Below are positions 2,724 to 60,843 of a stretch of 64,000 nucleotides of DNA, in pieces. Both the position numbers and the translations under genes were made by a program. The notes beneath the pieces were generated by a model. That model was not told where the DNA came from. It saw only the letters and a program-made list of their open reading frames with translations, and searched no databases. This DNA comes from Euptelea pleiosperma. Lineage: Eukaryota; Streptophyta; Magnoliopsida; Ranunculales; Eupteleaceae. The stretch covers positions 19,098,154-19,162,153 of the forward strand of contig CM068552.1 of assembly GCA_035048495.1 (NCBI GenBank), in the 5' to 3' direction. Position 1 is the first letter of the stretch. Every line of letters begins with the position of its first letter.

Positions 2724-2732
2724 CATAAAAAC
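2724..2732 (+). promoter_or_regulatory. Degenerate TATA box upstream of hairpin A1
   Basis: At this position units 2 to 5 have CTATAAATA; unit 1 reads CATAAAAAC. It lies about 120 nt before the hairpin stem, as in the other units. The altered box suggests this copy's promoter may be weaker. Promoter activity is inferred. Confidence 0.35.
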
Positions 2733-2850
2733 CCCACTACATTTGTTGTTTAGAGCAAGAATCGTAAACTCTTTCTTTCTATCTGTGCTCTTGGGCGGGT
2801 CCCCCATCTGCCTCTCCGAGTTACAGCAAGCTATTCGCGACCTTATGATC

Positions 2851-2979
2851 TAGGTGGGGGCCCCCACTCTACTTGCGGGTCTTGATCTCTGTAATCCATG
2901 CGGAAAGGCATATGCATGTTGTTCTCTCGCAGTTGGACAATAGAGGCAAGAGCCGCACGTAGAATGGGGACGCCATCTA
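2851..2979 (+). ncRNA. Type A MIR-like fold-back hairpin, copy A1
   Basis: The two arms are imperfectly complementary over roughly 55 bp around a loop of about 20 nt. The 5' arm begins TAGGTGGGGG and runs through CTCTACTTGCGGGTCTTG. The 3' arm, reverse-complemented, reads TAGATGGCG..CATTCTACGTGCGGCTCTTG. The base of the stem is best paired, with scattered mismatches and G:U pairs as in plant miRNA precursors. The block at 2960-2979, TAGAATGGGGACGCCATCTA, is identical in all five type A copies. I do not recognise it as a known miRNA. Expression is not shown by sequence; a decayed inverted duplication is the alternative. Confidence 0.5.
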
Positions 2980-3278
2980 CACTCCTACGTACGTACATGT
3001 TCGATTGCAACTGGAGATAGTCCGTTACCACAAGGTGCGTAGTGTCTAAAGTCAAATAGATCAGATGATCTTTTTTTCTGGAGATCGAAAGATCAGATGG
3101 TCTCAACCACCCAACTGCTTTGGTTCTGACCTCGGGGATCTCCAAGGTGGGACATATCAAAAGGTGGGTCATAAACACCTGTACATGCAATGCACAAGCA
3201 GGGGCCGGGTGTAGATTTTAACCTGCACCTGCATGCATGACAAATCCCATGCAGTTATTTCAGTATTCAGGACAATCA

Positions 3279-3316
3279 TGGTGAAGATGATCACAGTGAG
3301 GTGATCATCTTCACCA
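3279..3316. repeat. Perfect 16-bp palindrome (GATGATCAC stem)
   Basis: TGGTGAAGATGATCAC is followed by a 6-nt spacer and its exact reverse complement. It occurs in every unit about 300-350 nt downstream of hairpin A (8980-9020, 18958-19004, 26164-26204, 59866-59906), although the other copies have 3-9 extra bases in the left arm. It could be a protein-binding palindrome or a short RNA stem; function is unknown. Confidence 0.8.
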
Positions 3317-3660
3317 AAAATTAGCCTTTTGAGTCATCATCTACAAGTGTGCCTCGCCAAAAATTAGCCAAAGTTTCTCACCAACAAGAAAGGAGTCCAC
3401 ACTGGGCGAAGAAGGTAAACTGTTTCTTTCTTTCTCTTTCTTTCTTCATTTGTTAGTACTTCACTTTTTCCTGATAAGTTTCTTGATGATTTTTATTTTG
3501 ATAATGCTCACAAGTTCTTCAAAGAACTGCTTCACCTACAATGCTGGATCCATCTCTGCCCGAATTACTTCCAAATCAACTTTTTAGGTTACATATGAAC
3601 ATAAGCAAAGCATCAAGCCAGCCTTCAACGACTGAATCAGTCCTATCTGCCACGAATTTA

Positions 3661-3784
3661 CATAGGTGGACCCCCATTCTATGTATAGACCTTGGTTCTG
3701 GTGATCCATGCGGAAAGACAAATTGTTCTCCGGCGCTTGGATAAGCGAACCAAGAACCTTACATAGAATGGGGACACCATTTAG
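3661..3784 (+). ncRNA. Type C MIR-like hairpin, copy C1
   Basis: The 5' arm (AGGTGGACCCCCATTCTATG, then ACCTTGGTTCTGGTGATCCATGCGG in pieces) pairs with the 3' arm, whose reverse complement reads TGGTGTCCCCATTCTATG, TTCTTGGTTC and TATCCAAGCG. The stem is roughly 48 bp with bulges. It is clearly related to the type A hairpin, sharing ATCCATGCGG in the 5' arm and AGAATGGGGAC.CCAT in the 3' arm. The 3' block is TAGAATGGGGACACCATTTA. It sits directly upstream of a copia-like LTR fragment that has its own TATA box. Precursor status is inferred. Confidence 0.45.
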
Positions 3785-3789
3785 TCCTA

Positions 3790-4085
3790 CATGTTCGATT
3801 GCAACCTTGATCTTGGTTCAGGGCAATCTGCCACCAATTTCTTGGTTTGGGTATAAAAACCTTTTATAATGTGTAGGTTTTTTTTGGTGAGTGAGAATTT
3901 TGTGAGAGACTTTGGCTTTTGGGCGTGGGAAAAGCTCTTCGTTGAAGAAGCTTGTACGCCTTGTAATTTTGTGATCTCCATAATGAAAAAGAACTCCCTT
4001 GTTGTTGCCCCGTGGACGTAGGCATGCATACTGCCGAACCACGTAAATATTTGTGTCTCCGTATTTCTCTTTTTCTTTCATTATT
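3790..4085 (+). mobile_element. Ty1/copia-type LTR fragment (R/U5 side)
   Basis: It contains a TATA-like GGTATAAAAACC, then GTGAG..GAGAATTTTGTGAGAGACTTTGG, then the characteristic LTR tail 'cgtggacgtaggcat...ctgccgaaccacgtaaatatttgtgtc', which is typical of copia LTR R/U5 regions. No primer-binding site or internal region follows, so this is a solo or truncated LTR. The same fragment follows hairpins B or C in the other units. Confidence 0.6.
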
Positions 4086-4651
4086 TCAAAGACATGGTAA
4101 CAACAATAAACAAGGTAGAGTGGAAAATCTCACCTAAAACTCAAACAACAATGAAGATTTGAATTATTCATTAGTAATATATAATTGCCATCTCTGCTTA
4201 CAATCTATTGACCGTCCAATGAATGATTCACCTCTTTGATGATCCATAACTCGAAAAATTTCAATGACGACCTCATATATCTCATTCTTTTCAAAATGAT
4301 TTGTAGTGTAAGATGTCACCCATTGAATGTTTTCTTTGTTTTGTTTTTGGAAGGCAAACCATTAAATGTTGGGTTCCAGAGACAAGCTCCAAATTGCCCT
4401 AATTAAGAAGTCAATATTGAATCAACATAATGCTTGGGATTTTTTATCTATTAATTCTATGGCCAATCTAAAGACCACTGCCATGGGTCTCACAGGCATG
4501 GAAATGTACTCTGGACTGCAGATCTTATAATTGGACATGGAAATCCCTTATAGATTAGAGCATATGAGACAAGTCCAGATGAAAGACCAAAGGTTAGGCA
4601 TTTCAGCAAATGCATTGGATCCAAAATATACAAAAAACAAAGAATGTAGGA

Positions 4652-4815
4652 CAATGCTCACAAGTTCTTCTTCAAAGAACTGCTTTGCCTACAATGCTGG
4701 CTCCATCTCTGCATAAATTTCTTCCATTGTTATTCTCTTCTCCCTTTATCAGATGGCATGATAGAAAACAGCATCCTGCTTCAAATAGCATTCTTCCTAT
4801 TAATAGTGTCGACCC
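4652..4815 (+). repeat. Conserved 165-bp module M (second half of unit)
   Basis: This block starts ACAATGCTCACAAGTTCTTC and contains AAAGAACTGCTT.CCTACAATGCTGG, TCCATCTCTGCA, ATGATAGAAAACAGCATCCTGC and AATAGTGTCGAC. A diverged copy precedes the B or C hairpin of the same units (for example 9226-9380), so the module occurs twice per unit. The start can fold locally (AGTTCTT / AAGAACT). It has no recognised function. Confidence 0.6.
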
Positions 4816-6257
4816 ATAACAGATTTCCTACAGGGATATATACCCAACATAAACAATACCATTCTTACGATCTCCTTCTAAAATCCTTGATCTAATCCAG
4901 AACATCAACATCACTCTTGAAGATCTTTATGATCATGAGAAGTTATTGCCATGGTGTACAGCAACAGGCTAGGTAATATTTTTTTTTCCAGAACGTGATC
5001 TACATTCCACGAGCTTTTTGGTCCACTGACACTAGTGGAAAAAAGGAGAAAAAGAACACAAGAAAGGTCACTGAAAACAATCATCGAGCATCCTAACAAT
5101 CATCGAGAAATAGCAGTCCCCTTAAGGGAGGCTAGAACTCCAACATATAGCATCTTGAAGGTCATCGAGTAAATTAGACAATGAAAATGGTTGTAGATGT
5201 GGAAAAGACAAGAGTCGATAACTCAAACACTAACCACAGCAATAGTCAGATCGGTAGCTACAAGCTTAATTGACTCATGGCGGCCCATCTGATGAAGAAA
5301 TCAGCAAAATAACAATCAGATGGAATAAGGGCAAATATTTGCCCCATCCTAATAATGAAGTTGAAAAAGACGCTTATGTCCTTAATTACTAGTAAACTAA
5401 TTAACACACAAACGGAAGCCTCTAACACTACCCCTCAAGCTAGAGCACACATTCATGGCTTGGAAGCTGAAAATAATAGAACAAACCCAATCTTTTCCTA
5501 ATCAAAGGGTACAACAATCTCTTATAGTTACCATTTCCCTCACAAAACTGGAATTGGCTTCTTCGTGCTCTTTTCATTAATGGGAAACTAGATCCAAAGC
5601 AATCCAGGTTGCAGCTTAAATGTCTCATAACATCTTCATGGGAAGATGGACCTCAACACCATCTCACTTAAGATATTTTTAAACAAAAACCATAAAACTC
5701 AAAACAGCCGCAATTCCTAGTAATATACAATGAAAAATAGAAAAGCTAAAATCAAACTTCAATTGCAGAAAGTGTAGAAGAACAAGGACTAACATGGAAC
5801 CCACAAACTTTTCATAAAGAGAAGATAAAAAAAGAAAGGACAACATATCTATAATATATTGGGTTTCCAAAAAAAAAAACCCACAAAAGCAATCAGCTTT
5901 CCAAACTAAACGTTTCAAGCTCAAATCTGCAAATACATCCTATTAAACCTTAGCTTAATATTAAATTTTTTTCAAAAAACACCCCTATTTCAACTCCTCC
6001 AGGTGCAAGGATGTGCTTATGCTTCAGACATCTAGAAAGCGCCGTGTCAAACACCGATACACACATCTTGTCATTGTTACGTAGCTTTAAAACAAAAAAT
6101 TTAAGGTCTGTTAAAAATACTGAAAATGGCACAGATTACACATGCACCACCCACCAACTTTGAGAAATTCATCTTTTTTGCTTTACAAAAATGTCTTGGG
6201 TAATAAGTCATAGCTTGAAATTCATGTGTTAGATGAAAAGATGCGTGAGAGACAAGG

Positions 6258-6535
6258 AATCAGAGTATTCGAGGGCAAACAAGCAAATTTGCAGGCCATA
6301 GTTCTTAACATCAAGGGGATGATGTTTCTTATCCTGTTTGCAGGGGCTTATTGTTCGAGGACTTTATTTTTCGGTGGGGTCTTCTTTGAACTTGGGATGG
6401 CAGTTAGTCGGGTTTGTGTTTTATTTGTGTTTTTGTAACCTTTGCTTTCTGTGGGTCAGCTCGACCTCTTTAGCTCAAGCCTGCTATTTCTTGGCAATTG
6501 GCCCCAATAAAATTTATACTCATCAAAAAAAAAAT
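6258..6535 (+). mobile_element. 5'-truncated LINE, 3' end only
   Basis: The sequence encodes a C-terminal scrap of a non-LTR reverse transcriptase protein (RVFEGKQANLQAIVLNIKG, the motif following zf-RVT in plant L1 ORF2), then a 3' UTR and a poly(A) run at about 6526-6534. It is flanked by a 9-bp target duplication, GAGACAAGG, at 6249-6257 and 6536-6544. The unfilled site is preserved in unit 3 near 21114-21124. The same insertion is present in units 4 and 5. Confidence 0.8.
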
Positions 6536-6802
6536 GAGACAAGGTTACTCTAGTTATTATTTGTATCCAAACTGTCTTTCATCACTTCTGAGGCTGTTGT
6601 ACTAGATTTGACCAAGTGATGTAGGACAAACAGAAGTTCAATAAGGCCTAGGTTTAGAAAATCGTAATTAAGGGTGCACAGGGTTGGAGGGGTTAAGAAA
6701 GAGTAATCAGGGCCTGGTTTGATTGAGAATAAAGTGTAAGATTTGGGGTTATAGTTGGGTAAGATAATGTAGAATTATGGGGCTGGATTAAGGGCTGAAC
6801 AT

Positions 6803-7194
6803 TTGTTTTTTGACAAGTGTAAACTATCATTAATAGCAAAAGAAGATTGCAGGAAAAGCCTATGAGGTCGAGGTGACCTTCAAGAGGCTAAGGCACCTAC
6901 ATCATCACTGAACAAGGGAAAAGGCATAAAACAAAGAAACCAAATATCATACTAAATCTCTATGGCATATCATGTCCCACCGGAATAAAAGTTCTCAAAG
7001 AATAATCCCGGCCCCGACATTCTCGAAAGGCTTTAGACCAGAAGAACAAGAGTCCCTTAATGTTCAGAATAATATTCCCCTCTGAGGCCTTCCTACCCTC
7101 AAAGACCCTATGATTACGTTTTTTCCACAAACCCCAACAAATCGCAAACGGGAGCATGCGCCAAAGAATGAGTCCTCTGGTAGAGAAAGATGAT
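6803..7194 (-). mobile_element. Second 5'-truncated LINE, reverse strand
   Basis: The reverse strand encodes ICWGLWKKRNHRVFEGRK and NIILNIKGLLFFWSKAF, the C-terminal end of a plant L1-type ORF2. The element ends at its low-coordinate side in a TTTTTTGACAAG stretch, the reverse of an A-rich 3' end. An 11-bp target duplication, GGGCTGAACAT, flanks it at 6792-6802 and 7195-7205. Unit 3 near 21371-21395 has the corresponding empty site. In unit 4 this same LINE is cut by the CACTA element. Confidence 0.85.
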
Positions 7195-8280
7195 GGGCTG
7201 AACATAAGGATATAAAGGTTGTTGGTTTGATGGTTAAAGTTGTTTTGGGGTTTTATGGGGTAATTAGAACAGACGTGTGGGGATGTTATTAGTTAGTGGG
7301 CCTAGAGAGCAGCTTTGAGTCGAGGGGGGGCACACTACCTATTCCTGGGACCCCCTATTCACGTTAAGGCCCTGCATTGATGCCCTACACTGGATGCCCT
7401 ATGAAGGATATTCAATCTCAACAACACTATATTTTTCAACCAATTGCAATAGGCATGACTAAGTTAACAACCAAAGCCAGTCTCTCGTATGAAAATAGAT
7501 GGGGACTAATGCCGGATTTCTTAATAACAAAGGACGACAGATCTGCACCGCACACTAAGGGTGTAAATGGGCCAGTCTTGATCCTGGGCCTGGCTCTATA
7601 TTTTGAGTGGGCCTGAGTAGGCCTAAGCATGAAATCCTTGGTTATCAATCCAACTTTTCAAATGTTTACCGGCCAGCCTTTGGACATGCCATGACCAAAT
7701 TCCACACCATTTAAAAGAAACTAACCATCCGATCAAGGACCTTTGTGAAACAACCTATGAACGGTTCAAATTCAATACAAATGTGTATTAGTGGTCATCC
7801 AATTAAATGGTCAATATTGCTGTAATCGGCCAGGCATTGCTGTGAATTTTGGGCTGTCCCATTACTAGGGCATGAAATTGGCCGGATCCTATAGATGATC
7901 ATGATCTGGTTCTGTCTTGATCCAGATCCAGATCTGAACCGTACTCTCTAATCCATATTGAATGACCCAAATCCAGTATATTGATTAGTTATATAATCAC
8001 AGATTCACAAACACAATCATCCAAAGGATCCGAATGAATCCAAGACGGCCAAACAGTACTGGATCGTCTTAAGCACATTCAGACCTGAAATCAATTGGAC
8101 TCGGGTCACGTCAGGTCCCCTAGATCCATAGTCGTCCATTTTGTATTTGGGATACATTTTGAGGATCCAAATCAGTTATAGAATAGGCGTTGACTGGGTC
8201 AGGAGGATTGACCCGGTCCTTTTCTTGCAATCCAAATCTAGTTTCCTTATTCGACACAAGTTACTTGGTACGTAACAAAT

Positions 8281-8289
8281 CTATAAATA
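8281..8289 (+). promoter_or_regulatory. CTATAAATA box of hairpin A2
   Basis: CTATAAATAC followed by a C-rich run is a canonical plant TATA box. It lies 125 nt before the A2 stem, with a pyrimidine-rich TTTCTTTC leader between. Transcription would be expected to start near 8312, giving a leader of about 95 nt. The spacing is 125 nt in units 2, 4 and 5 and about 120 nt in unit 3. Confidence 0.6.
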
Positions 8290-8405
8290 CCCCCCCTATC
8301 TTTGTTGTTTAGAGAACCCTAAACTCTTTCTTTCTTTCTTTGCTCTTGGGTGGGTCCCCCATATGCCTCTCCGAGTTACAGCAGGATAGTCGCGACCTTA
8401 CGATC

Positions 8406-8531
8406 TAGGTGTGGCCCCCACTCTACTTGCGGGTCTTGATCTCTGTAATCCATGCGGAAAGGCATGCATGTTGTTTTCTCGCAGTTGGACAATAGAGGCA
8501 AGAGCCGCACGTAGAATGGGGACGCCATCTA
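8406..8531 (+). ncRNA. Type A MIR-like hairpin, copy A2
   Basis: Same fold as A1, with a strongly paired base (5' TAGGTGTGGCCCCCACTCTA against 3' TAGAATGGGGACGCCATCTA), a CGGGTCTTG / CAAGAGCCG helix and a loop around GGCATGCATG. The 3' block is identical to the other A copies although the surrounding unit has diverged. It lies 125 nt downstream of a good TATA box and is one of the copies most likely to be transcribed. Confidence 0.55.
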
Positions 8532-8979
8532 CACTCTCTTACGTACGTGTTCGATTGCAACCGGAGATAGTCCGTTACCACAAGGTACGTGCTTCTACAC
8601 TTGTATGCAAATGGTTGCATACGTAGTTGGTCCCACCTAATAGATCTTGTAGTTGAAAAATCAAGATGGTTGGACAATCTCAACCATCCAATTTTCTCGT
8701 TTTTTGAAGATGGTTTAGAAAACCAGAAGAATGAAAAACTATATAGCAAGAAAGTCAAATAGATCCGATGGTCTTTTTTTCTGGAGGAAGATCAGGTGGT
8801 CTCTATCATCCAACTGCTTTGATATTTACCTAGGGAATCCCCAAGGTGGGACATATCAAAAGGTGGGTCCTAAACCCCTGTCCATGCAGTGCACAAGCCG
8901 GGGTGTACATTTTGACCTGCACCTGCATGCATGCATGACATATCCCATTGTAGATATATTTCAGTATTCAGGACAATCA

Positions 8980-9020
8980 TGGTGAAGATGATGATCACAA
9001 TGAGGTGATCATCTTCACCA
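8980..9020. repeat. GATGATCAC palindrome, unit 2
   Basis: Same palindrome as at 3279, with an extra ATG in the left arm and AATGAG as spacer. The right arm GTGATCATCTTCACCA is unchanged. Confidence 0.75.
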
Positions 9021-9225
9021 AAAATTAGCCTTTGACTCATCTACAGTGGGCTTGCCACACCAAAACTTAGCCAAAGTTTCTCAACAAGAAAGGAGAGTCT
9101 ACATATGACATATCCTATAGTGCGCGAAGAAGGTAAACTCTTTATTTCTTTATTTCTCTCTTTTCTTTCTCCATTTGTTAGTATTTCACTTTTTCCTGAT
9201 AAGCTTCTTGATTTTTCTTTTTGAT

Positions 9226-9380
9226 AATGCTCACAAGTTCTCCAAAGAACTGCTTCACCTACAATGCTGGAATCCATCTCTTCTGCACGAATATTTCTTC
9301 CAAATCAACTCGATCATGGTAGAAAACGGCATGCTGCTTCAATAGAGCATTCTTTCCTATGTCTACCAATAGTGTCAACA
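9226..9380 (+). repeat. Module M, copy upstream of hairpin B2
   Basis: Diverged copy of the 4652-4815 block: AATGCTCACAAGTTCTCC, AAAGAACTGCTTCACC, GGTAGAAAACGGCATGCTGC, AATAGTGTCAAC. It ends about 100 nt before the B2 hairpin. Equivalent partial copies precede the B hairpins at 19146-19260, 26410-26540 and 60107-60250. Confidence 0.55.
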
Positions 9381-9482: not shown

Positions 9483-9606
9483 CTAGGTGGATTCCCATTC
9501 TATGACCTTGGTTCTGGCAATCCATGCATGCAGAAAGGCATATTGTTCTTCTGCAGTTGGATAACTGAAGCAAGAACCAAGAACATAGAATGGGGACACC
9601 ATCTAG
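9483..9606 (+). ncRNA. Type B MIR-like hairpin, copy B2
   Basis: The 5' arm CTAGGTGGATTCCCATTCTATG, then ACCTTGGTTCTGGC and AATCCATGC, faces a 3' arm whose reverse complement reads CTAGATGGTGTCCCCATTCTATG (both in pieces), TTCTTGGTTCTTGC and TTATCCAACTGC. This is the best-paired type B copy, with an almost continuous CTATG..CTTGGTTCT..GC helix. The 3' block is TAGAATGGGGACACCATCTA, one base different from type A. A copia-like LTR fragment follows immediately. Confidence 0.5.
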
Positions 9607-9612
9607 CCCTAC

Positions 9613-18534: not shown

Positions 18535-18664
18535 TAGGTGGTGCATGCCCCCACTCTACTTGCGGGTCTTGATCTCTGTAATCCATGCGGAAAGGCATGC
18601 ATGTTGTTTTCTCGCAGTTGGACAGTAGAGGCAAGAGCCGCACGTAGAATGGGGACGCCATCTA
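18535..18664 (+). ncRNA. Type A MIR-like hairpin, copy A3
   Basis: Same stem as the other A copies, but the 5' arm has a small insertion (GTGGTGCATGCCCCCAC rather than GTGGGGCCCCCAC), which adds a bulge near the base. The 3' block TAGAATGGGGACGCCATCTA is unchanged even though unit 3 is one of the most diverged units. Confidence 0.5.
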
Positions 18665-19355: not shown

Positions 19356-19480
19356 CTAGGTGGACTCCCATTCTATGTAAGAACCTTGGTTCTGGCAATC
19401 CATGAAGAAAGGCATATTGTTCTTTTGCAGTTGGATAACTGAAGCAAGAACCAAGAACATAGAATGGGGACACCATCTAG
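19356..19480 (+). ncRNA. Type B MIR-like hairpin, copy B3
   Basis: The 5' arm CTAGGTGGACTCCCATTCTA pairs with the 3' block TAGAATGGGGACACCATCTAG. The upper stem uses ACCTTGGTTCTGGC against GCAAGAACCAAGAA. The 5' arm has an extra TAAGA relative to B2, giving an internal bulge. An LTR fragment follows, as with the other B/C copies. Confidence 0.5.
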
Positions 19481-19489
19481 CCCTACACG

Positions 19490-22738: not shown

Positions 22739-24246
22739 CAACATCGAAGCACCTTTAACATAGAAAATATAGCCATACATAAAATGCTGATATTTGACGA
22801 CATCACCACATTTGAGCACAGTTTGACTACTGTTGGCAACACTAGTTTAGCTTCATTTGAATTCTTTGACTATGAATGACATGCCTGAAACTCAATTAGC
22901 ATCACTGAGACACCCAAATTGGCACTACTATCACATCAAGATATCCAAAGTGACAAAGAAAATGTGCTGCCCGAGGGATCTTGTTGTGCCAAGAGAGAGA
23001 TGTGAGCTGAAACAGGGATTGTAAAAGTGCGAGCCCCGATCCTCGGTCCAAGATGAAGAAATCAATACCACCCAAGGACTTATATATGGTGTGGTGTGGA
23101 GATGTTTCTCCCCTTTTTAACAAAATCATATTTTAGTATTTAAAACTACCATTGTTTTTAAAATAAAAACAAGCCAACACATCTTACTATTTTTTTTGAG
23201 TAAAGAATCTTCTTCATGTTGACTTCTTTCCTTATTTTCTAAAAATCACCTAAAACTTTAAAAAATCTTTTTTTAAAATTTTAAAATCCAACTTTACTTA
23301 TTTGGAAAGGATGAGACACGTCCTCATCTTTTAGCAATTTTCAACTCTTGACTTTCCAATTAAAACCATTTTCTCTTTTAGCAAATAAAACTTGAGCTAC
23401 TTTTTTTTATATTAAAAAAATATTTTGAACTTATTTTTTCATTAAAATACTATTTTCTTACTTCATTTCAACATCTAAAGGTATTCAAATATGCCAACCG
23501 ACCATCATTGTTTTGAGAAAATAGATATTTTCTTTTTAAAATATCAAAACTCTTTTTTTAGTATTAAAATCTTTTGCTTGGAAAGAGAAAAAATACACCG
23601 GCTATATTCTTTTGGTAATATCCTACATATTTGCTAAAATGATTATTGTATACTACGCATTTATCCCTTGTGTTGACACGGTTCTTTACCTTGGATCATC
23701 AACTTTGCCCACCAATTCGGCTCACATCTTGGTAGTGTGACCTACTAGCCTTTTTTGAATTTCAATTCTTGTGATTGGGCTTGGGCTTGACCGGCTTTGA
23801 GAGTGAGCTTTGGTACTGGGCTGTAGCACCCGGTTATATCGAGTCCTTGAATTTGTACTTTAGCACACTTCTTTAGGCATTGGGTTAGCTCACCTATACA
23901 AACAACAAGGAAATTAATGTAAGCCCATTATCATGAAAGTTCCGAAATGTTCTTATGCTCATGAAATTCCCTAGATGTGAGAAAAGTCACGAAAATGGAT
24001 AATTCTCTACTTTATAAGTAAAAAATAGAGATTTATGTAGGAAACTCTTGATAACATCTTGGGATAAATGGGAAAAAATATATAAAATGACGAGTTATCA
24101 CCTACCCCTATTGCTTTCCAAATTAGGATTTTGTCTAGCTTTGACAAACATTGTTGTGAGTGCTCTAGTGGACGACAGTCCACGAGGCACAACTGAATGG
24201 TCTCTTTTCTTCCTCTTACTTTTAGTGTTTGGAGTCATACCTGGAC
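22739..24246. other. AT-rich intergenic region
   Basis: No gene is seen. There are many A and T runs, notably 23150-23620, without recognisable terminal repeats. It ends where unit 4 begins with ATTCCTCAGTTATC. Confidence 0.5.
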
Positions 24247-25458
24247 AATTCCTCAGTTATCTTTCATAGCATGCTTTGAGACTGATCCCATGTTAGATTG
24301 TTAAAGTTTTGATAACAGTGCTGGGATGGTGACAATACCAGAGTTTGGATTGGGAGGCATGGCTTTCTCACTAAAATGTGCACCTGAATGATGGTCTACA
24401 AATCTCACACTGACAGAGGAGGTACATACAGAATGGGACCCATCTTTCGATGGATAGATTCACTCCAGAAACCGATCTGATTAGATGATAATAACCACTA
24501 GATTTATTTCATTATCCACTGTCAATGAATATTAGCGAGCTATCTAGAAAAAAGAAATATTTCATAGAGCTGATGGTTACAGTTATCTAATCGTATTGGT
24601 TTTTTGGCGAAGATTTTGGTGGGATGTATTGAATAATGGGTGTGGATGGGAGGTGGGACCGCATGTGAACCATCACCAAACACCCTCTAGATGGGGATTG
24701 CCGGATTTGTTTATAACAAAGGACGCCAGATCTGCACCGCACAGTAACGGTGTAAATGGGCCAGTCTTGGTCCTGGGCCCGACTTTTGGTATATTTTGAG
24801 TAGGCCTAAGCATGGAATCCTTGGTCATCAATCCAACTTTTCAAACGTTTACCAGCATTAGGACTTGCCATGACCAAATTCCACACCATTTAAAAGAAAC
24901 TAACCATCCGATCAAGGACCTTCATGAAACAACCTATGAACGGTTCAAATTCAATACAAATGTGTATTAGTGGTCATCCAATTAAATGGTCAATATTGCG
25001 GTAATCGGCCAGGCATTGCTGTGAATTTTGGGCTGTCCGATTACTAGGGCATGAAATTGGCCGGATCCTATAGATGATCATGATCTGGTTCTGTCTTGAT
25101 CCAAATCCAGATCTGATGGCCCACACCATTAGGATATGAACCATACTCTAATCCGTATTGAATGACCCAAATCCAGTATATTGATTAGTTATATAATCAC
25201 AAACACAATCATCCAAAGGATCCGAATGAATCCAAGACGGCCAAACAGTACTACATTCAGACGTGAAATCAATTGGACACGGGTCAGATCAGGTCCCCTA
25301 GATCCATATTCGTCCATTTTGTATTTGGGATACATTTTGAGGATCCAAATCAGTTATAAAATAGGTGTTGACTGGGTCAGGAGGATTGACCCGGTCCTTT
25401 TCTTGCAATCCAAATCTAGTTTCCTTATTCGACACAAGTTACTTGGTACGTAACAAAT

Positions 25459-25467
25459 CTATAAATA
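25459..25467 (+). promoter_or_regulatory. CTATAAATA box of hairpin A4
   Basis: Canonical TATA box exactly 125 nt before the hairpin, as in units 2 and 5. Confidence 0.6.
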
Positions 25468-25583
25468 CCCCCCCTATCTTTGTTGTTTAGAGAACCCTAA
25501 ACTCTTTCTTTCTTTCTTTGCTCTTGGGTGGGTCCCCCATCTACCTCTCCGAGTTACAGCAGGATAGTCGCGACCTTACGATC

Positions 25584-25709
25584 TAGGTGGGGCCCCCACT
25601 CTACTTGCGGGTCTTGATCTCTGTAATCCATGCGGAAAGGCATGCATGTTGTTTTCTCGCAGTTGGACAATAGAGGCAAGAGCCGCACGTAGAATGGGGA
25701 CGCCATCTA
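25584..25709 (+). ncRNA. Type A MIR-like hairpin, copy A4
   Basis: The 5' arm TAGGTGGGGCCCCCACTCTA aligns without gaps over 21 positions with the reverse complement of the 3' arm; four differences leave one G:U wobble and three mismatches. Above this lie TGCGG and TCTTG helices and a loop containing GCATGCATG. It is essentially identical to A5. Confidence 0.55.
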
Positions 25710-26163
25710 CACTCTCTTACGTACGTGTTCGATTGCAACCGGAGATAGTCCGTTACCACAAGGTACGTGCTTCTACACTTCTATGCAAATGGTGGTTGCA
25801 TAAGTAATTGGTCCCACCTAATAGATCTTGTAGTTGAAAAATCAAGATGGTTGGACAATCTCAACCATCCAATTTTCTCGTTTTTTGAAGATGGTTTAGA
25901 AAACCAGAAGAATGAAAAACTATATAGCAAGAAAGTCAAATAGATCAGATGGTCTTCTTTTTTTCTGGAGGAAGATCAGGTGGTCTCTATCATCCAACTG
26001 CTTTGATATTTACCTAGGGAATCCCCAAGGTGGGACATATCAAAAGGTGGGTCCTAAACCCCTGTCCATGCAGTGCACAAGCCGGGGTGTACATTTTGAC
26101 CTGCACCTGCATGCATGCATGACATATCCCATTGTAGATATATTTCAGTATTCAGGACAATCA

Positions 26164-26204
26164 TGGTGAAGATGATGATCACAATGAGGTGATCATCTTC
26201 ACCA
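26164..26204. repeat. GATGATCAC palindrome, unit 4
   Basis: Same form as unit 2 (extra ATG in the left arm, AATGAG spacer). Confidence 0.75.
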
Positions 26205-26652
26205 AAAATTAGCCTTTGACGCATCTACAGTGGGCCTGCCTGACCAAAACTTAGCCAAAGTTTCTCAACAAGAAAGGAGAGTCTACATATGACATATCCT
26301 ATAGTGGGCGAAGAAGGTAAACTCTTTATTTCTTTATTTCTCTCTTTTCTTTCTCCATTTGTTAGTATTTCACTTTTTCCTGATAACCTTCTTGATTTTT
26401 CTTTTTGATAATGCTCACAAGTTCTCCAAACAATGCTGGATCCATCTCTTCTGCACTAATATTTCTTCCAAATCAACTCGATCATGGTAGAAAACAGCAT
26501 GCTGCTTCAATAGAGCATTCTTTCCTATGTCTACCAATAGTGTCAACATCAGCAAAATTTCAAGCCAGTCTTGCCCAACATCAAGCCAACTTTCAACGAC
26601 TGAATTGGTCCTTGCTGCCACCAATTTATAGAAGGGATACACGACCTCTAAT

Positions 26653-26765
26653 CTAGGTGGACTCCCATTCTATGTAAGGACCTTGGTTCTGGCAATCCAT
26701 GAAGAAAGGCATATTGTTCTCCTGCAGTTGGATAACTAAACCAAGAACCAAGAACATAGATCTAG
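26653..26765 (+). ncRNA. Type B hairpin copy B4 with deleted 3' core
   Basis: The 5' arm is complete (CTAGGTGGACTCCCATTCTA), but the 3' arm reads ACATAGATCTAG where B2 and B3 read ACATAG plus 12 nt plus ATCTAG. The missing 12 nt are the heart of the conserved block (AATGGGGACACC). The stem base can no longer form, so this copy is probably inactive. B5 has the same deletion, which therefore predates the unit 4/5 duplication. Confidence 0.45.
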
Positions 26766-27013
26766 TTCTACATGTTCGATTGCAACCTTGATCTTGATTC
26801 TGGCAATCCGCCACCAATTAATTTCTTGGTTTGGATATAAAAACCTTTTTTTTTTTTTTTTTTTGTGTGAGAGTGAGAAATTTTGTGAGAGACTTTGGTT
26901 TTTGGGCTTTTGAATTCTTTGACATATGAACAAAGCAAACCATCAAGCCAACCTTGCCCAACATCAAGCCAGCCTTCAACGACTGAATCAGTCCTATCTG
27001 CCACAAATTTACA

Positions 27014-27138
27014 CAGGTGGACCCCCATTCTATGTAAAGACCTTGTTTCTGGTGATCCATGCGGAAAGGCAAATTGTTCGATCTCCGGCGCTTGGATAAG
27101 TGAACCAAGAACCTTACATAGAATGTGGACACCCTTTA
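27014..27138 (+). ncRNA. Type C MIR-like hairpin, copy C4
   Basis: A long uninterrupted helix CATTCTATGTAA / TTACATAGAATG, then CTTG(G)TTC / GAACCAAG and ATCCATGCG / CGCTTGGAT, around a loop with AAATTGTTCGATC. The 3' block has changed to TAGAATGTGGACACCCTTTA. It lies about 360 bp downstream of B4 as part of a local tandem duplication (hairpin plus LTR head). Confidence 0.5.
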
Positions 27139-27147
27139 GTTCTACAT

Positions 27148-27540
27148 GTTCGATTGCAGCCTTGATCTTGGTTCTGGCAATCTGCCACCACTTTCTTGGT
27201 TTGGGTATAAAAACTTTTTATAATGTGTAGATTTTTTTTGGTGAGAGTGAGAAATTTTGTGAGAGACTTTCTCTTTTGGGCATTGAAAAAGCTCTTCGTT
27301 GAAGAAGCTTGTACGCCTTGTAATTTTGTGATCTCCATAATGAAAAAGAAGACTCCTTTGTTGTTGCCCGTGTGGACGTAGGCATACTGCCGAACCACGT
27401 AAATATTTGTGTCCACATGTTTCTTTTTTGCATTATTTTATTTACTTTTCTTCTTGTATATCCGGTTGTGTGTGCTTCGTTTTTCTCAACATTACTGACT
27501 CTAGAGAAAATCCATTACCAGAAGGTAGTGTGTAATTATC
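27148..27540 (+). mobile_element. Copia-type LTR fragment, unit 4
   Basis: Contains GGTATAAAAAC, GTGAGAGTGAGAAATTTTGTG, GAAGAAGCTTGTACGCC, and the TGTGGACGTAGGCATACTGCC and GAACCACGTAAATATTTGTG tail. A shorter piece of the same LTR head also follows B4 (26770-26900). Confidence 0.6.
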
Positions 27541-28137
27541 ACTGTTCCCTACATTGATAATATGATCCCATATATACATGGTAACGACAATAAACAAGGT
27601 AGAGTGGAAAATCTCACCTAAAACTCAAACAACAATGAGGATTTGAATTATTCATTAGTAATAATTGACATCTCTGCTTACAATCTATTGACCGTCCAAT
27701 GAATGATTCACCTCTTTGATGATCCATAACTTAATAAATTTCGATGACGATCTCATATATCTCATTCTTTTCAAAATGATTGCTTGGTAGTGTAAGATGT
27801 CACCCATTGAATGTTTTCTTTGTTTTGTTTTTGGAAGGCAAACCATTAAATGTTGGGTTCCACCCATAGAGAAAAGCTCCAAATTGCCCTAATTAAGAAG
27901 TCAATACTGAATCAACATAATGTTTGGGTTTTTTATCTATTTTATGGCCAATCAAAAGACCACTGCCTAGGGTCTCAGGCATGGAAATGTACTCTGGACT
28001 GCAGATCTTATAATTGGACATGGAAATCCCTTATAGATTAGAGCATATGAGACAAGTTCAGATGAAATACCGAAGGTTAGGCAGTTCAGCAAATGCATTG
28101 GATCCAAAATATACAAAAAACGACAAAGAATGTAGGA

Positions 28138-28305
28138 CAATGCTCACAAGTTCTTCTTCAAAGAACTGCTTTGCCTACAATGCTGGCTCCATCTCTGCAT
28201 AAATTTCTTCCATTGTTATTCTCTTCTCCCTTTATCAGATGGCATGATAGAAAACAGCATCCTGCTTCAAATAGCATTCTTCCTATTAATAGTGTCGACC
28301 CATAA
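28138..28305 (+). repeat. Module M, second copy in unit 4
   Basis: Nearly identical to 4652-4815, including the AAGTTCTTCTTCAAAGAAC local inverted repeat and AATAGTGTCGACCCATAAC. Confidence 0.6.
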
Positions 28306-29724
28306 CAGATTTCCTACAGGGATATATACCCAACATAAACAAGACCATTCTTACGATCTCCTTCTAAAATCCTTGATCTAATCCAGAACATCAACATCAC
28401 TCTTGAAGATCTTTATGATCATGAGAAGTTATTGCCATGGTGTACAGCAACAGGCTAGGTAATGTTTTTTTTTCCAGAAGGTGATCTACATTCCACGAGC
28501 TTTTTGCTCCACTGACACTACTGGAAAAAAAGAGAAAAAAACACAAGAAAGGTCACTGAAAACAATCATCGAGAAATAGCAGTCCCCTTAAGGGAGGCTA
28601 GAACTCCAACATATAGCATCTTGAAGGGCATCGAGTAAATTAGACAATGAAAATGGTTGTAGATGTGGAAAAGACAAGAGTTGATAACTCAAACACTAAC
28701 CACAGCAATAGTCAGAGTGGTAGCTACAAGCTTAATTGACTCATGGCGGCCCATCTGATGAAGAAATCAGCAAAATAACAATCAGATGGAATAAGGGCAA
28801 ATATTTGCCCCATCCTAATAATGAAATTGAAAAAGACGCTTATGTCCTTAATTACTAGTAAACTAATTAACACACAAACGGAAGCCTCTAACACTACCCC
28901 TCAAGCTAGAGCACACATTCATGGCTTGGAAGCTGAAAATAATAGAACAAACCCAATCTCTTCCTAATCAAAGGGTACAACAATCTCTTATAGTTACCAT
29001 TTCCCTCACAAAACTGGAATTGGCTTCTTCGTGCTTTTTTCATTAATGGGAAACTAGATCCAAAGCAATCCAGGTTGCGGCTTAAATGTCTCATAACATC
29101 TTCATGGGAAGATGGACCTCAACACCGTCTCACTTAACATATTTTTAAACAAAAACCATAAAACTCAAAACGGCAGCAGTTCCTAGTAATATACAATGAA
29201 AAATAGAAAAGCTAAAACCAAACTTCAATTGCAGAAAGTGTAGAAGAACAAGGACTAACGTGGAACCCCCAAACTTTTCATAAAGAGAAGATAAAAAAAA
29301 GAAAGGACAACAAATCTATAATATATTGGGTTTCCAAAAAAAAACCCACAAAAGCAATCAGCTTTCCAAACTAAACGTTTCAAGCTCAAATCTGCAAATA
29401 CTCCCTATTAAACCTTAGCTTAATATTAAATTTTTTTCAAAAAACACCCCTATTTCAACTCCTTCAGGTGCAGGGATGTGCTTGTGCTTCAGACATCTAG
29501 AAAGCGCCATGTCAAACACCGATACACACATCTTGTCATTGTTACGTAGCTTTAAAACTAAAAATTTAAGGTCTGTTAAAAATACTGAAAATGGCACAGA
29601 TTACACATGCGCACCACCCACCAACTTTGAGAAATTCATCTTTTTTGCTTTACAAAAATGTCTTGGCTAATAAGTCATAGCTTGAAATTCATGTGTTAGA
29701 TGAAAAGATGCGTGAGAGACAAGG

Positions 29725-29984
29725 AATCAGAGTATTCGAGGGCAAACAAGCAAATTTGCAGGCCGTAGTTCTTAACATCAAGGGGATGATGTTTCTTATC
29801 CTGTTTGCAGGGGCTTATTGTTCGGTGGGGTCTTCTTTGAACTTGGGATGGCAGTTAGTCGGGTTTGTGTTTTATTTGTGTTTTTGTAACCTTTGCTTTC
29901 TGTAGGTCAGCTCGACCTCTTTAGCTCAAGCCTGCTATTTCTTGGCGATTGGCCGCAATAAAATTTATACTTATAAAAAAAAAT
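29725..29984 (+). mobile_element. LINE 3' end, orthologous copy in unit 4
   Basis: Same insertion as 6258-6535, with the GAGACAAGG duplication at 29716-29724 and 29985-29993. It is internally shortened by loss of GAGGACTTTATTTTTCG relative to unit 1. It was copied by the segmental duplication rather than inserted independently. Confidence 0.8.
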
Positions 29985-30250
29985 GAGACAAGGTTACTCT
30001 AGTTATTATTTGTATCCAAACTGTCTTTCATCACTTCTGAGGCTGTTTTACTAGATTTGACCAAGTGATGTAGGACAAAAAGAAGTTCAATAAGGCCTAG
30101 GTTTAGAAAATCGTAATTAAGGGTGCACAGGGTTGGAGGGGTTAAGAAAGAGTAATCAGGCCTGGTTTGATTGAGAATAAAGTGTAAGATTTGGGGTTAT
30201 AGTTGGGTAAGATAATGTAGAATTATGGGGCTGGATTAAGGGCTGAACAT

Positions 30251-30493
30251 TCATTTTTTGACAAGTGTAAACTATCATTAATAGCAAAAGAAGATTACAG
30301 GAAAAGCCTATGAGGTCGAGGTGACCTTCAGGAGGCTGAGGCACCTACATCATCACTGAACAAGGGAAAAGGCAAAAAACAAAGAAACCAAACATCATAC
30401 TAAATCTCTATGGCATATCATGTCCCACCGGAATAAAAGTCATCAAAGAATAATCCCGGCCCTGACATTCTCGAAAGGCTTTAGACCAGAAGA
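30251..30493 (-). mobile_element. Second LINE, truncated by the CACTA element
   Basis: Matches 6803-7045. The left target copy GGGCTGAACAT is at 30240-30250, but after GACCAGAAGA the sequence switches to CACTACTACAC. The remaining 149 bp of the LINE, its right target copy and the bases equivalent to 7206-7240 are absent here and do not reappear beyond the right end of the CACTA composite. Confidence 0.8.
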
Positions 30494-54503: not shown

Positions 54504-56065
54504 GGTCCTAAAACCCTTAGTTTTCTAAATTCATTAAAAAAAATCCTAACCAAAACAGCTCTTAGATTATGAGATTAAGGTAACTCAAGTCAGAAATATT
54601 CTGAAAGCATTCACACTTTAAATTTACAAACTAATAGACAAAATATATGGAGCAGGGTTTCATCACCCTCAGCCAAACCATTCACCTGATGTTGCACAAA
54701 TCACCCATCCATGTACATGCGGACTGTCTGGTCTTCTTTCCAAGGGCGTCAAGCATTGAATTGATGGAGATAGTGCATGATTTTGGCATTTCTTCAAACA
54801 CTTTTCGGGAATCCGGAAGGACTCCGAAAGAAACTATTTTTTCAAATTCTCAAAATTCCATTCAAGGTATTTACACACCACATTTTCTTGACTGGGTCGT
54901 AAAAGAGACTATATTTTTAATTCTCAAAATTCCCAAATCATTTGTTTCTTTCTGAAAATTGGGAAAGAATGTTCAGATTCAAAAAATTTCTGAATAAATT
55001 AGACTGAAATCAAAGTTGATCCTCTATGATAATTTTAAAATCTACTTATAATTCTTTGTAAGCAAATTTGAAATGCGAAGGATGCAGATTTAAAAGACGC
55101 AAATGCCAAGAAACTATGCAATAGCAATGCAAGAAGACAAGCATGAACCCTCAATACCACGTTACACACCAATATAGAATGCAAGTATATCAAAAGAGAA
55201 TCTGGACTGAGATTCACAATAGAAAAAAGAAGAAGCAAACCCTCGTATGTGGATGCAGCAAAGAATGTCGAATGTGAAGCTAAATCTTCTAGTCTCAAAC
55301 AAGTTTCCAACGTCTAGGAGAGTATTAGAAATGACTCATAGGGTTCGGCAAAACATCTATGGTTCTACCGCTGCATCAAGGGTTCAGCCAAACATCCATA
55401 CGATCAGAAATCTCTAATTTATAGTCCCAAAAATCATGAAATTTTTAATTAAAATAAGAAATAACTTACTCTTACCTGAGGTAGGTGGATGGTGGAGGAG
55501 ATTTGAGGGGAAACTCGAATTACAATCCACAAAGGTTGAGATTTGAGGGCTGAAAAGGTGCTCGTGGTAAAAGGCAGGCGGAGCACCGACGGAGCAACAG
55601 TTAAGGCGCACGTAGAGCCCTGTTTGCTGCGTGGACTAGTAGAGCAACGGCCAGCGAGAACAACGACACAGAGCGAGAGAGCAGTGAGCAGTGACGAGAG
55701 AGAGTGATGGGGAAAGGGCAGAGAGAGATGGGAAAGAATAAAAGAGAGGAGAGGTTTAGATAGGGTTGAGTTTCTATTTTCTAAAGCATCGGTTTACCCC
55801 CAAACCGTACCCTAAACCCCAGTAGTTTTTATAACCACGCATTCTAGAAACGCCGTGGCCTCAAATAAGGGTTATTTGTAGCCTTTTATCCTCTTAAAAT
55901 ACCTCCGTTTTCACCCACTTTGTGACCTATAGGTTATGGTTACGGTTTTAAAAAAAACGGTGGCCATTTTGCAGCACTTTAAACTACAGATTTTCCTAAA
56001 ACCGTATTCTTTATTTTTTTAAATAATTTTTTTTATTAATTTGGCATTTAGGCTTTATTTTTAAA

Positions 56066-56124
56066 TAAAACCATAGTCTATTAAATTTTTAAGAGTGTAG
56101 TCTAAATAGTATTGTGTAGTAGTG
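56066..56124 (-). repeat. CACTA terminal inverted repeat, right
   Basis: Reverse complement begins CACTACTACACAATACTATT, matching the left terminus. The host sequence resumes TGTTTTGGGG, matching 7241. Confidence 0.9.
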
Positions 56125-56335
56125 TGTTTTGGGGTTTTATGGGGTAATTAGAACAGACGTGTGGGGATGTTATTAGTTAGTGGGCCTAGAGAGCAGCTTT
56201 GAGTCGAGGGGGGGCACACTACCTATTCCTGGGACCCCCTATTCACGTTTAGGCCCTGCATTGATGCCCTGCACTGGATGCCCTATGAAGGATATTCAAT
56301 CTCAACAACACTATATTTTTCAACCAATTGCAAGT
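56125..56335 (+). repeat. Duplicated host flank, first copy
   Basis: TGTTTTGGGGTTTTATGG through CAACCAATTGCAA corresponds to 7241-7447 and recurs at 58148-58338 beyond a second CACTA end. The duplication therefore includes a CACTA/host junction. Confidence 0.8.
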
Positions 56336-57609: not shown

Positions 57610-58147
57610 GGAGATTTGAGGGGAAACTCGAATTACAATCCACAAAGGTGGAGATTTGAGGGCTGCAAAGGTGCTCGCGGTAAAAGGCAGGCGGAGCACC
57701 GACGGAGCAATAGTTAAGGCGCAAGTAGAGCCCTGTTTGCTGCGTGGACTAGTGGAGCAACAGCCGGCGAGAACAACGACGCAGAGCGAGAGAGCAGTGA
57801 GCAGTGATGAGAGAGAGAGATGGGGAAAGGGCAGAGAGAGATGGGAAAGAATAAAAGAGAGGAGAGGTTTAGATCGGGTTGAGTTTCTATTTTCTAAAGC
57901 ATCGGTTTACCCCCAAACCGTACCCTAAACCCCAATAGTTTTCATAACCACGCATTCTAGAAACGCTGTGGCCTCAAAACGGTGGCCATTTTGCAGCACT
58001 TTAAACTACAAATTTTCCTAAAATCGTATTCTTTATTTTTTTAAATAATTTTTTTTATTAATTTGGCTTTTAGGCTTTATTTTTAAATAAAACCATAGTC
58101 TATTAAATTTTTAACAGTGTAGTCTAAATAGTATTGTGTAGTAGTGT
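57610..58147 (-). mobile_element. Second CACTA 5' end fragment
   Basis: Repeats the outer part of the right arm (about 55497-56124), ending in the same TGTAGTAGTG|TGTTTTGG junction. It lacks about 85 bp between CCTCAAA and ACGGTGGCC, apparently deleted at a short A-rich microhomology. It has no transposase. It is a relic of duplication of the junction rather than a separate insertion. Confidence 0.8.
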
Positions 58148-59163
58148 GTTTTGGGGTTTTATGGGGTAATTAGAACAGACGTGTGGGGATGTTATTAGTT
58201 AGTGAGCCTAGAGAGAAGCTTTGAGTCGAGGGGGGGGCACACTACCTATTCCTGGGACCCCCTATTCACTTTTAGGCCCTGCACTAGATGCCCTATGAAG
58301 GATATTCAATCTCAACAACACTATATTTTTCAACCAATTGCAATAGGCATGACTAAGTTAACAACCAAAGCCAGTCTCTCGTATGAAAATAGATGGGGAC
58401 TAATGCCGGATTTGTTAATAACAAAGGACGACAGATCTGCACCGCACACTAAGGGTGTAAATGGGCCAGTCTTGATCCTGGGCCTGGCTCTATATTTTGA
58501 GTAGGCCTAAGTATGAAATCCTTGGTTATCAATCCAACTTTTCAAACGTTTACCAGCCAGCCTTTGGACATGCCATGACCAAATTCCATACCATTTAAAA
58601 GAAACTAACCATCCGATCAAGGACCTTTGTGAAACAACCTATGAACGGTTCAAATTCAAGACAAATGTGTATTAGTGGTCATCCAATTAAATGGTCAATA
58701 TTGCTGTAATCGGCCAGGCATTGCTGTGAATTTTGGGCTGTCCGATTACTAGGGCATGAAATTGGCCGGATCCTATAGATGATCATGATCTGGTTCTGTC
58801 TTGATCCAGATCCAGATCTGATGGCCCACACCATTAGGATATGAACCATACTCTAATCCGTATTGAATGACCCAAATCCAGTATATTGATTAGTTATATA
58901 ATCACAAACACAATCATCCAAAGGATCCGAATGAATCCAAGACGGCCAAACAGTACTACATTCAGATGTGAAATCAATTGGACACGGGTCAGATCAGGTC
59001 CCCTAGATCCATATTCGTCCATTTTGTATTTGGGATACATTTTGAGGATCCAAATCAGTTATAGAATAGGTGTTGACTGGGTCAGGAGGATTGACCCGGT
59101 CCTTTTCTTGCAATCCAAATCTAGTTTCCTTATTCGACACAAGTTACTTGGTACGTAACAAAT

Positions 59164-59172
59164 CTATAAATA
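59164..59172 (+). promoter_or_regulatory. CTATAAATA box of hairpin A5
   Basis: Canonical TATA box exactly 125 nt before the A5 hairpin, in the same leader context as units 2 and 4. Confidence 0.6.
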
Positions 59173-59288
59173 CCCCCCCTATCTTTGTTGTTTAGAGAAC
59201 CCTAAACTCTTTCTTTCTTTCTTTGCTCTTGGGTGGGTCCCCCATCTGCCTCTCCGAGTTACAGCAGGCTATTCGCGACTTTACGATC

Positions 59289-59414
59289 TAGGTGGGGCCC
59301 CCACTCTACTTGCGGGTCTTGATCTCTGTAATCCATGCGGAAAGGCATGCATGTTGTTTTCTTGCAGTTGGACAATAGAGGCAAGAGCCGCACGTAGAAT
59401 GGGGACGCCATCTA
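59289..59414 (+). ncRNA. Type A MIR-like hairpin, copy A5
   Basis: Same fold and same 3' block (TAGAATGGGGACGCCATCTA) as A4. The only differences seen are in the loop side (TTGCAG for TCGCAG). Confidence 0.55.
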
Positions 59415-59865
59415 CACTCTCTTACGTACGTGTTCGATTGCAACCGGAGATAGTCCGTTACCACAAGGTACGTGCTTCTACACTTGTATGCAAATGGTTG
59501 CATGCGTAATTGGTCCCACCTAATAGATCTTGTAGTTGAAAAATCAAGATGGTTGGACAATCTCAACCATCCAATTTTCTCGTTTTTTGAAGATGGTTTT
59601 GAAAACCAGAAGAATGAAAAACTATATAGCAAGAAAGTCAAATAGATCAGATGGTCTTCTTTATTTCTGGAGGAAGATCAGGTGGTCTCTATCATCCAAC
59701 TGCTTTGATTTTTACCTAGGGAATCCCCAAGGTGGGACATATCAAAAGGTGGGTCCTAAACCCCTGTCCATGCAGTGCACAAGCCGGGGTGTACATTTTG
59801 ACCTGCATCTGCATGCATGCATGACACATCCCATTGTAGATATATTTCAGTATTCAGGACAATCA

Positions 59866-59906
59866 TGGTGAAGATGATGATCACAATGAGGTGATCATCT
59901 TCACCA
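59866..59906. repeat. GATGATCAC palindrome, unit 5
   Basis: Same form as units 2 and 4. Confidence 0.75.
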
Positions 59907-60367
59907 AAAATTAGCCTTTGACTCATCTACAATGGGCCTGCCACACCAAAACTTTGCCAAAGTTTCTCAACAAGAAAGGAGAGTCTACATATGACATATC
60001 CTATAGTGGGCGAAGAAGGTAAACTCTTTATTTCTTTATTTCTCTCTTTTCTTTCTCCAACTTCACTTTTCCTGATAAGCTTCTTGATTTTTTTTTTTTT
60101 TTTGATAATGCTCACAAGTTCTCCAAAGAACTGCTTCACCTACAATGCTGGAATCCATCTCTTCTGCACGAATATTTCTTCCAAATCAACTCGATCATGG
60201 TAGAAAACAGCATGCTGCTTCAATAGAGCATTCTTTCCTATGTCTACCAATATAGTGTCAACATCAGCAAAATTTCAAGCCAGTCTTGCCCAACATCAAG
60301 CCAACTTTCAACGACTGAATTGGTCCTTGCTGCCACCAATTTATAGAAGGGATACACGACCTCTAAT

Positions 60368-60470
60368 CTAGGTGGACTCCCATTCTATGTAAGGACCTTG
60401 CCCATGCAGAAAGGCATATTGTTCTCCTGCAGTTGGATAACTAAACCAAGAACCAAGAACATAGATCTAG
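60368..60470 (+). ncRNA. Type B hairpin copy B5, both arms damaged
   Basis: The 3' arm has the same 12-nt loss as B4. The 5' arm additionally lost GTTCTGGCAATC (ACCTTGCCCATGC). The stem cannot form normally; presumably a dead copy. Confidence 0.4.
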
Positions 60471-60718
60471 TTCTACATGTTCGATTGCAACCTTGATCTT
60501 GGTTCTGGCAATCTGCCACCAATTAATTTCTTGGTTTGGATATAAAAACCTTTTTTTTTTTTTTTTTTTGTGTGAGAGTGAGAAATTTTGTGAGAGACTT
60601 TGGCTTTTGGGCTTTTGAATTCTTTGACATATGAACAAAGCAAACCATCAAGCCAACCTTGGCCAACATCAAGCCAGCCTTCAACGACTGAATCAGTCCT
60701 ATCTGCCACAAATTTACA

Positions 60719-60843
60719 CAGGTGGACCCCCATTCTATGTAAAGACCTTGGTTCTGGTGATCCATGCGGAAAGGCAAATTGTTCGATCTCCGGCGCTTGG
60801 ATAAGTGAACCAAGAACCTTACATAGAATGTGGACACCCTTTA
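60719..60843 (+). ncRNA. Type C MIR-like hairpin, copy C5
   Basis: Matches C4 and keeps CCTTGGTTCTGG in the 5' arm where C4 has CCTTGTTTCTGG, so pairing with CCAAGAACC is better here. The 3' block is TAGAATGTGGACACCCTTTA. Confidence 0.5.

Follow-up and report, generated by a model that had tools for sequence, protein, structure and literature searches.

Transposon-derived loci that give rise to microRNAs (MIRNA genes) or to hairpin small interfering RNAs (siRNAs) are a known class. Plant candidates can be judged by the criteria that Axtell and Meyers (2018) set for MIRNA genes (table in PMC11293646), and a section of PMC8688358 describes DCL1 as guided by structural cues at a distance of 15-17 bp from the microRNA duplex, either a bulge below it or a loop or bulge above it. 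Here we describe a family of fold-back hairpins in 64,000 nt of Euptelea pleiosperma DNA (assembly GCA_035048495.1, contig CM068552.1, positions 19,098,154 to 19,162,153, forward strand), called the window below; positions are counted from its first nucleotide. The family comprises 12 related hairpins in five duplicated units, five of type A, four of type B and three of type C. From sequence features, we propose that a small non-coding gene transcribed by RNA polymerase II (Pol II) contains A as its stem-loop, that segmental duplication brought it to five copies, and that A is probably a MIR-type precursor specific to the lineage; we give this reading an even chance (about 0.5).

A previous reading made from the letters alone (the sequence-only reading) had proposed five segmental units, and self-comparison of the window confirmed them:

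24243..30493, no strand: duplicated unit 4, from self-comparison and its junctions
about 1506-7045, 7241-11311, 17740-21386 and 58147-64000, no strand: the other units, from self-comparison; the last reaches the end of the window

These alignments support an expansion by segmental duplication. For a given pair of units, divergence is uneven from one end to the other. The hairpins they carry are listed with minimum free energy (MFE) where given and with the z-score of the fold against 200 shuffles of each locus:

2851..2979, + strand: hairpin A1 (unit 1), MFE -67.1, z -7.5
8406..8531, + strand: hairpin A2 (unit 2), MFE -64.7, z -7.2
18535..18664, + strand: hairpin A3 (unit 3), MFE -65.4, z -7.0
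25584..25709, + strand: hairpin A4 (unit 4), MFE -69.9, z -8.2
59289..59414, + strand: hairpin A5 (unit 5), MFE -67.9, z -8.1
9484..9605, + strand: hairpin B2, intact, MFE -58.5, z -7.8 for 9483-9605
19357..19479, + strand: hairpin B3, intact, z -5.5 for 19356-19479
26653..26768, + strand: B4, broken hairpin (12 nt missing from the 3' arm by alignment), z -1.0
60368..60473, + strand: B5, broken hairpin (deletions in both arms by alignment), z -0.05
3663..3783, + strand: hairpin C1, z -7.1 for 3661-3783
27016..27138, + strand: hairpin C4, z -2.8 for 27014-27138
60721..60843, + strand: hairpin C5, z -4.2 for 60719-60843

All 12 starts given by the sequence-only reading carry the sequence it described. 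Its count wavered between eleven and twelve; twelve loci is right, but only ten of them are intact. It had also suggested folding each copy, which yielded stable stems in 10 of the 12 loci, with none of the 200 shuffles equalling these long stems, but not in B4 and B5. In both of these the alignment shows a loss of 12 nt from the 3' arm, and their folds were equalled by 33/200 and 97/200 shuffles, respectively. The z-scores of all five A copies lie between -7.0 and -8.2, and the five A copies plus B2 are the six most stable loci of the window (6387 folded segments of 130 nt, step 10). The hairpin family is real and beyond chance. The + strand folds better for A, B2 and B3 (7/7), which fits a + strand RNA for A and B.

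Downstream of the hairpin, the 5' arm of B and C recurs in direct orientation (CTTGGTTCTGGCAATC or near it, at 9605-9665 and equivalents), so the 3' arm could pair with this repeat as an alternative hairpin (13 bp in B2). Folds of the whole stretch concerned in B2, B3 and C1 favoured the main hairpin, and the alternative was rejected.

We then compared the stems with plant precursors. The ten intact copies form unbranched stems of 121-130 nt, which keeps the precursor below 300 nt with no secondary stem in the duplex. Allowing at most five unpaired nucleotides per strand (the table gives at most six mismatches) and at most three asymmetric ones, 21-nt duplex segments within these limits occur in 10/10 intact copies, from 7 of 42 segments in B3 to 45 of 47 in A2, A4 and A5. 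The basal duplex itself passes in A1, A2, A4, A5, B2, B3, C4 and C5, and in C1 from offset 1. These predicted folds support a MIR-like structure for A, B2, B3 and C1, and more weakly for C4 and C5. In A4 and A5 the stem consists of helices of 7, 1, 5, 5, 5, 5, 7, 4, 5 and 6 bp, with a regular series of 5-bp helices split by single mismatches or a one-base bulge. Six single mismatches occur in A4, four of them C-A, A-C or U-C and two G-G. According to the relevant section of PMC7577975, A-C, U-U and U-C are the most frequent mismatches in plant precursors and C-C and G-G are rare; we therefore counted the four as evidence for a MIR-type stem. Four of the five intact B and C stems have internal loops that start ~14-16 nt above the basal 21-nt block (positions judged by eye). 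This spacing is close to the 15-17 bp given for loop-to-base processing in PMC8688358 and would be consistent with such a release of that block.

Sequence conservation is concentrated in blocks. The 20-nt block TAGAATGGGGACGCCATCTA is exact in 5/5 A copies and one mismatch away in B2 and B3, as the sequence-only reading had counted; there are two mismatches in C1 and four in C4 and C5, and B4 and B5 lack the block. In the comparison among the three types, identity over 11 columns peaks at 0.96 in the 3' basal block; the apical block ATCCATGCGGAAAGGC comes next with 0.91, and the 5' basal block does not exceed 0.85. The earlier view that the base of the stem is most conserved thus holds for the 3' side, but the apex exceeds the 5' base. 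Between-family identity dips to ~0.45-0.6 in the 5' mid-stem and ~0.55-0.8 in the 3' mid-stem; within A alone, both arms are conserved over their full length. For a MITE or foldback element, homology between A and B or C should stop sharply at the hairpin ends and be bordered by a target-site duplication. A and B are homologous over ~190-205 nt; the shared stretch opens 35-43 nt ahead of the stem and closes with GTTCGATTGCAAC(C) ~31 nt behind it. Homology of A and C begins nearer the stem base; for C5 it starts at the base and extends ~31 nt past the 3' end.

We asked how the A arms diverge relative to their surroundings. Units 1, 3 and 5 were compared as three lineages, with units 2 and 4 omitted as closest to unit 5 and columns gapped in any of units 1, 3, 4 and 5 removed. 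The two A arms together hold 2 substitutions in 97 columns, compared with 241/1633 overall, and 0/1536 contiguous segments of 97 columns matched this count. The rest of the block at 25281-25768 holds 35/369, and the arms are lower (Fisher p 0.008). Between units 1 and 5 the arms have 0/99 substitutions and one 1-nt gap, and the adjoining leader has 16/133. Between units 3 and 5 there are few differences over ~25281-25768 and many more on both sides. For B (unit 2 versus 3), the hairpin has 3/122 substitutions, the upstream stretch 25/213 and the R-U5 region of the long terminal repeat (LTR)-like module described below 6/191; given this low R-U5 divergence, the effect in B is not hairpin-specific. 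For C (unit 1 versus 5), the hairpin has 6/121, the sequence before it 1/52, that after it 5/78 and R-U5 13/202. Arm constraint supports a MIR-like nature for A alone.

A also has flanking sites of its own, found by pattern scan for the boxes:

8282..8289, + strand: TATAAATA TATA-like box before A2; also at 18416, 25460 and 59165
2724, + strand: CATAAAAA box before A1
25755..25768, + strand: donor-like site, ACCACAAG followed by GTACGT, after A4; the same after A2, A3 and A5 (5/5 units have a donor-like site)
26353..26365, + strand: pyrimidine-rich acceptor-like site with a TTAG end, in units 1-4; deleted in unit 5

The TATA-like box lies 119-127 nt upstream of the A hairpin in 5/5 copies, and after A1 the donor-like site reads GTGCGT instead of GTACGT. 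A has its own promoter-like leader, outside the LTR-like module that accompanies B and C:

27206..27213, + strand: TATAAAAA TATA box after C4; also at 3852, 9677, 19551, 26836, 60541 and 60911 (7/7 B and C copies)
27372..27401, + strand: LTR U5-like motif GTGGACGTAGG...CGAACCACGTA; also from 4012, 9831, 19741 and 61075

This TATA box differs from the TATA-like box of A. The U5-like motif (GTGGACGTAGGC..GCCGAACCACGTAAAT) occurs once per unit, with none directly after B4 and B5. A TATA box followed by a U5-type motif, the order sought for an LTR, is therefore present in 5/5 units, in one of them (unit 5, from 61075) with one changed base in the second half of the motif. The module may be of the copia type. 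In the part of PMC7876178 that lists LTR primers for citrus retrotransposons, pooling copia-like and gypsy-like elements, 4 of 14 primer pairs hold parts of the same motif. Text matches to GTGGACGTAGGCA include two unrelated medical papers, so this 13-letter match alone is not diagnostic and the citrus primers serve as support. The tRNA-Met primer-binding site TGGTATCAGAGC has no exact match on either strand of the window, no second LTR or LTR pair was found in the window, and the module has no clear pair of TG..CA ends (boundaries judged by eye). With no exact primer-binding site and no LTR pair found, it is at best a degenerate LTR. B and C are best described, on these features, as LTR-associated relatives of A.

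Since B and C stand upstream of a TATA-U5 module and A has its own leader, the twelve copies do not form one uniform MIR cluster. The lineage-specific MIR or siRNA cluster of the sequence-only reading survives in part as a MIR-like one: duplication and MIR-like structure bear it out, but arm constraint is confined to A.

Searches for known relatives were negative. At the gathering score, Rfam matched no family anywhere in the window. When 25400-27500 was searched up to E 5, the unit 4 hairpins remained unmatched; the only hits were SNORD123 and mir-598, at chance level and both on a short hairpin at 26159-26206. This near-perfect hairpin (GGTGAAGATGATCAC..GTGATCATCTTCACC or near it) also occurs near 3279 and 8980; in units 1, 2 and 4 at least, it lies in the interval from A to B/C. 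Ten arm fragments, in DNA and RNA spellings where these differ, had no match in the main texts of the articles searched. Within Rfam and the article text searched, A appears to belong to no known family. Collections of viral and prokaryote sequences do not contain the 20-nt block, as would be expected of plant DNA, and a reading frame over hairpin B2 and the LTR-like module had no relative up to E 1 in the protein database. A likeness to miR482/2118, a family with a CCCATTC core, was rejected: the core sits on the other arm. Outside the hairpins, the window holds 52 complementary placements (score <=3.5). No gene target was recognised in 20 of these, which were near the cut-off, fell on the downstream 5'-arm repeat or recurred in the units.

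A model that accommodates these observations is that an A transcript would start ~30 nt past the CTATAAATA box and carry the hairpin in a first exon that ends at AG before GTACGT. The imperfect stem would then be diced by DCL1, from loop to base, to give 21-22-nt duplexes, and the likeliest mature duplex would be the basal one (5p from UAGGUGG, 3p with UAGAAUGGGGACGCCAUCUA). B and C would lie within the U3-like portion of a degenerate LTR, which makes it probable that the hairpin either arose in an LTR or was taken up by one. In a bolder version, each unit would be one polycistronic spliced gene, with a promoter, A in exon 1, an intron, B and C, and a co-opted LTR polyadenylation region. A and B/C would share the basal mature duplex, with mid-stems replaced pair by pair, and the array would raise the dosage of a new microRNA whose gene incorporates LTR parts. 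We regard this version as speculative and unlikely.

Several observations weigh against A as a MIR-type gene. Among the folds, the basal duplex of A3 exceeds the bulge limit because of a 5x1 internal loop (passing segments begin at offset 11), a 6x1 loop lies directly above the basal block of B3, the A stem runs ~20 nt from the basal block to its first larger internal loop, and the two G-G mismatches in A4 are of the kind called rare in that section of PMC7577975. C folds better on the - strand (3/3), and the TATA box of A1 is degraded. The pairing counts point both ways. In favour of the MIR-type reading, stem pairing is kept across A, B and C in 96.0% of 377 cells, compared with 35.5-49.0% in slid controls, and the two-sided changes (17 cells) were reached by 0/500 shuffles. 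Against it, the structure came from the same alignment and is thereby favoured over its slid versions, the five pairs that carry two-sided changes were reached by 145/500 shuffles and the 15 further pair types by 477/500, and the ten sequences amount to few independent lineages. When the whole A hairpin is taken as one contiguous segment (4/126), it is equalled by 22/1507 segments, which include, besides the hairpin itself, the proximal promoter from ~25289; this promoter is conserved almost as strongly as the arms. The tract at 25281-25768 is somewhat conserved as a whole, which makes gene conversion possible. Neither B nor C shows clear hairpin-specific constraint.

Some of these points suit other explanations. 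All copies could be inverted repeats of transposable elements (an LTR U3 hairpin or an inserted foldback) that yield heterochromatic 24-nt siRNAs and no discrete microRNA. B and C do precede a TATA box (7/7) and the GTGGACGTAGGC..GCCGAACCACGTAA motif, the one with parts in citrus LTR primers in PMC7876178; the three scanned open reading frames (ORFs) in or across the units match no Pfam family; and B/C hairpins diverge no more slowly than some adjoining sequence. However, the U5 motif follows B and C copies only, A has its own leader and arms with fewer substitutions than any of the 1536 contiguous segments of equal size, and neither an exact tRNA-Met primer site nor an LTR pair nor TG..CA ends could be established. 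We consider this explanation tentative, less probable than a MIR-type A and still deserving real weight.

The same leader admits another function, in which A forms part of a long non-coding RNA, as a structured leader or exon, and acts by its structure without being diced. The TATA-like box and donor-like site in 5/5 units, the pyrimidine-rich TTAG acceptor in 4/5 and an apex conserved between families nearly as well as the base would suit this. Stem length and imperfection fit plant microRNA precursors, though they are compatible with a structural RNA too, and we think such a role improbable. Finally, the copies might be non-functional relics, the conservation of A reflecting gene conversion that homogenised a tract of ~0.5 kb. 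Such homogenisation would match the likeness of units 3 and 5 over ~25281-25768 with far less on both sides, the uneven divergence between units and the broken B4 and B5. It is hard to square with the substitution-free arms of units 1 and 5 beside a leader with 16/133, and with arms that are lower than the rest of the same tract; we judge this the least probable of the explanations. A MIR-type precursor in A remains our preferred reading.

Between units 4 and 5 lies an insertion that starts with CACTACTACACAAT at 30494; ATTGTGTAGTAGTG closes it at 58146 and also stands earlier, up to 56124. Pfam matched four of 10 scanned ORFs, all within this 30.5-58 kb insertion, and the three scanned ORFs in or across the duplicated units were without a match. 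The insertion carries tnp2, Transpos_assoc, DUF4218 and DUF4216 domains, which together with the outer ends indicate a CACTA-type transposon or a nest of them at 30494-58146. Its two stretches with tnp2 (within 30486-37926 and 46124-56132) match each other as a large inverted repeat, ~98% identical over the matched pieces. The tnp2 ORF has 2107 relatives; the best of the 120 listed show 63-66% identity over 94-98% of it and others reach 71% over ~70%, and those named to species are flowering plants. A glycosyltransferase-2-like fragment (PF13632) lies at 38720-39160 on the - strand, and may have been captured from a cellulose-synthase-like gene of a plant. The unit flank at 56125-56333 recurs at 58147-58343 (and at 7241-7449), each of the first two directly after a CACTA end; this arrangement suggests that the transposon end and flank may have been duplicated locally. 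Between units 2 and 3, at 13327-13552, a 61-nt unit is repeated in tandem (3.7 copies).

If A is processed, it would represent a young multiplying MIR family beside an LTR-associated sister hairpin, and a useful case for transposon hairpins turning into microRNA genes. If it is not, a segmentally duplicated, LTR-linked inverted repeat can mimic a MIR cluster. Compared with plant Ty1/copia-type LTRs, the B/C module is alike in its TATA box followed by GTGGACGTAGGC..GCCGAACCACGTAA, but differs in that no second LTR or primer-binding site was found in the window; to our knowledge, a hairpin upstream is not a known feature of such LTRs. B and C resemble transposon-derived MIRNA or hairpin-siRNA loci in being coupled to an LTR-like module, and the family in being repeated in one region; A is unlike them: it stands outside the module, its arms are constrained and it has a promoter-like leader of its own. 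Compared with plant MIRNA precursors, the hairpins match no Rfam family and no recognised microRNA sequence. In form, however, A, B and C resemble such precursors, with long imperfect stems of 121-130 nt that contain duplexes within the limits, and with basal and apical blocks conserved and the middle freer, a pattern that we presume to be like that of the loop-to-base precursors of miR159 and miR319.

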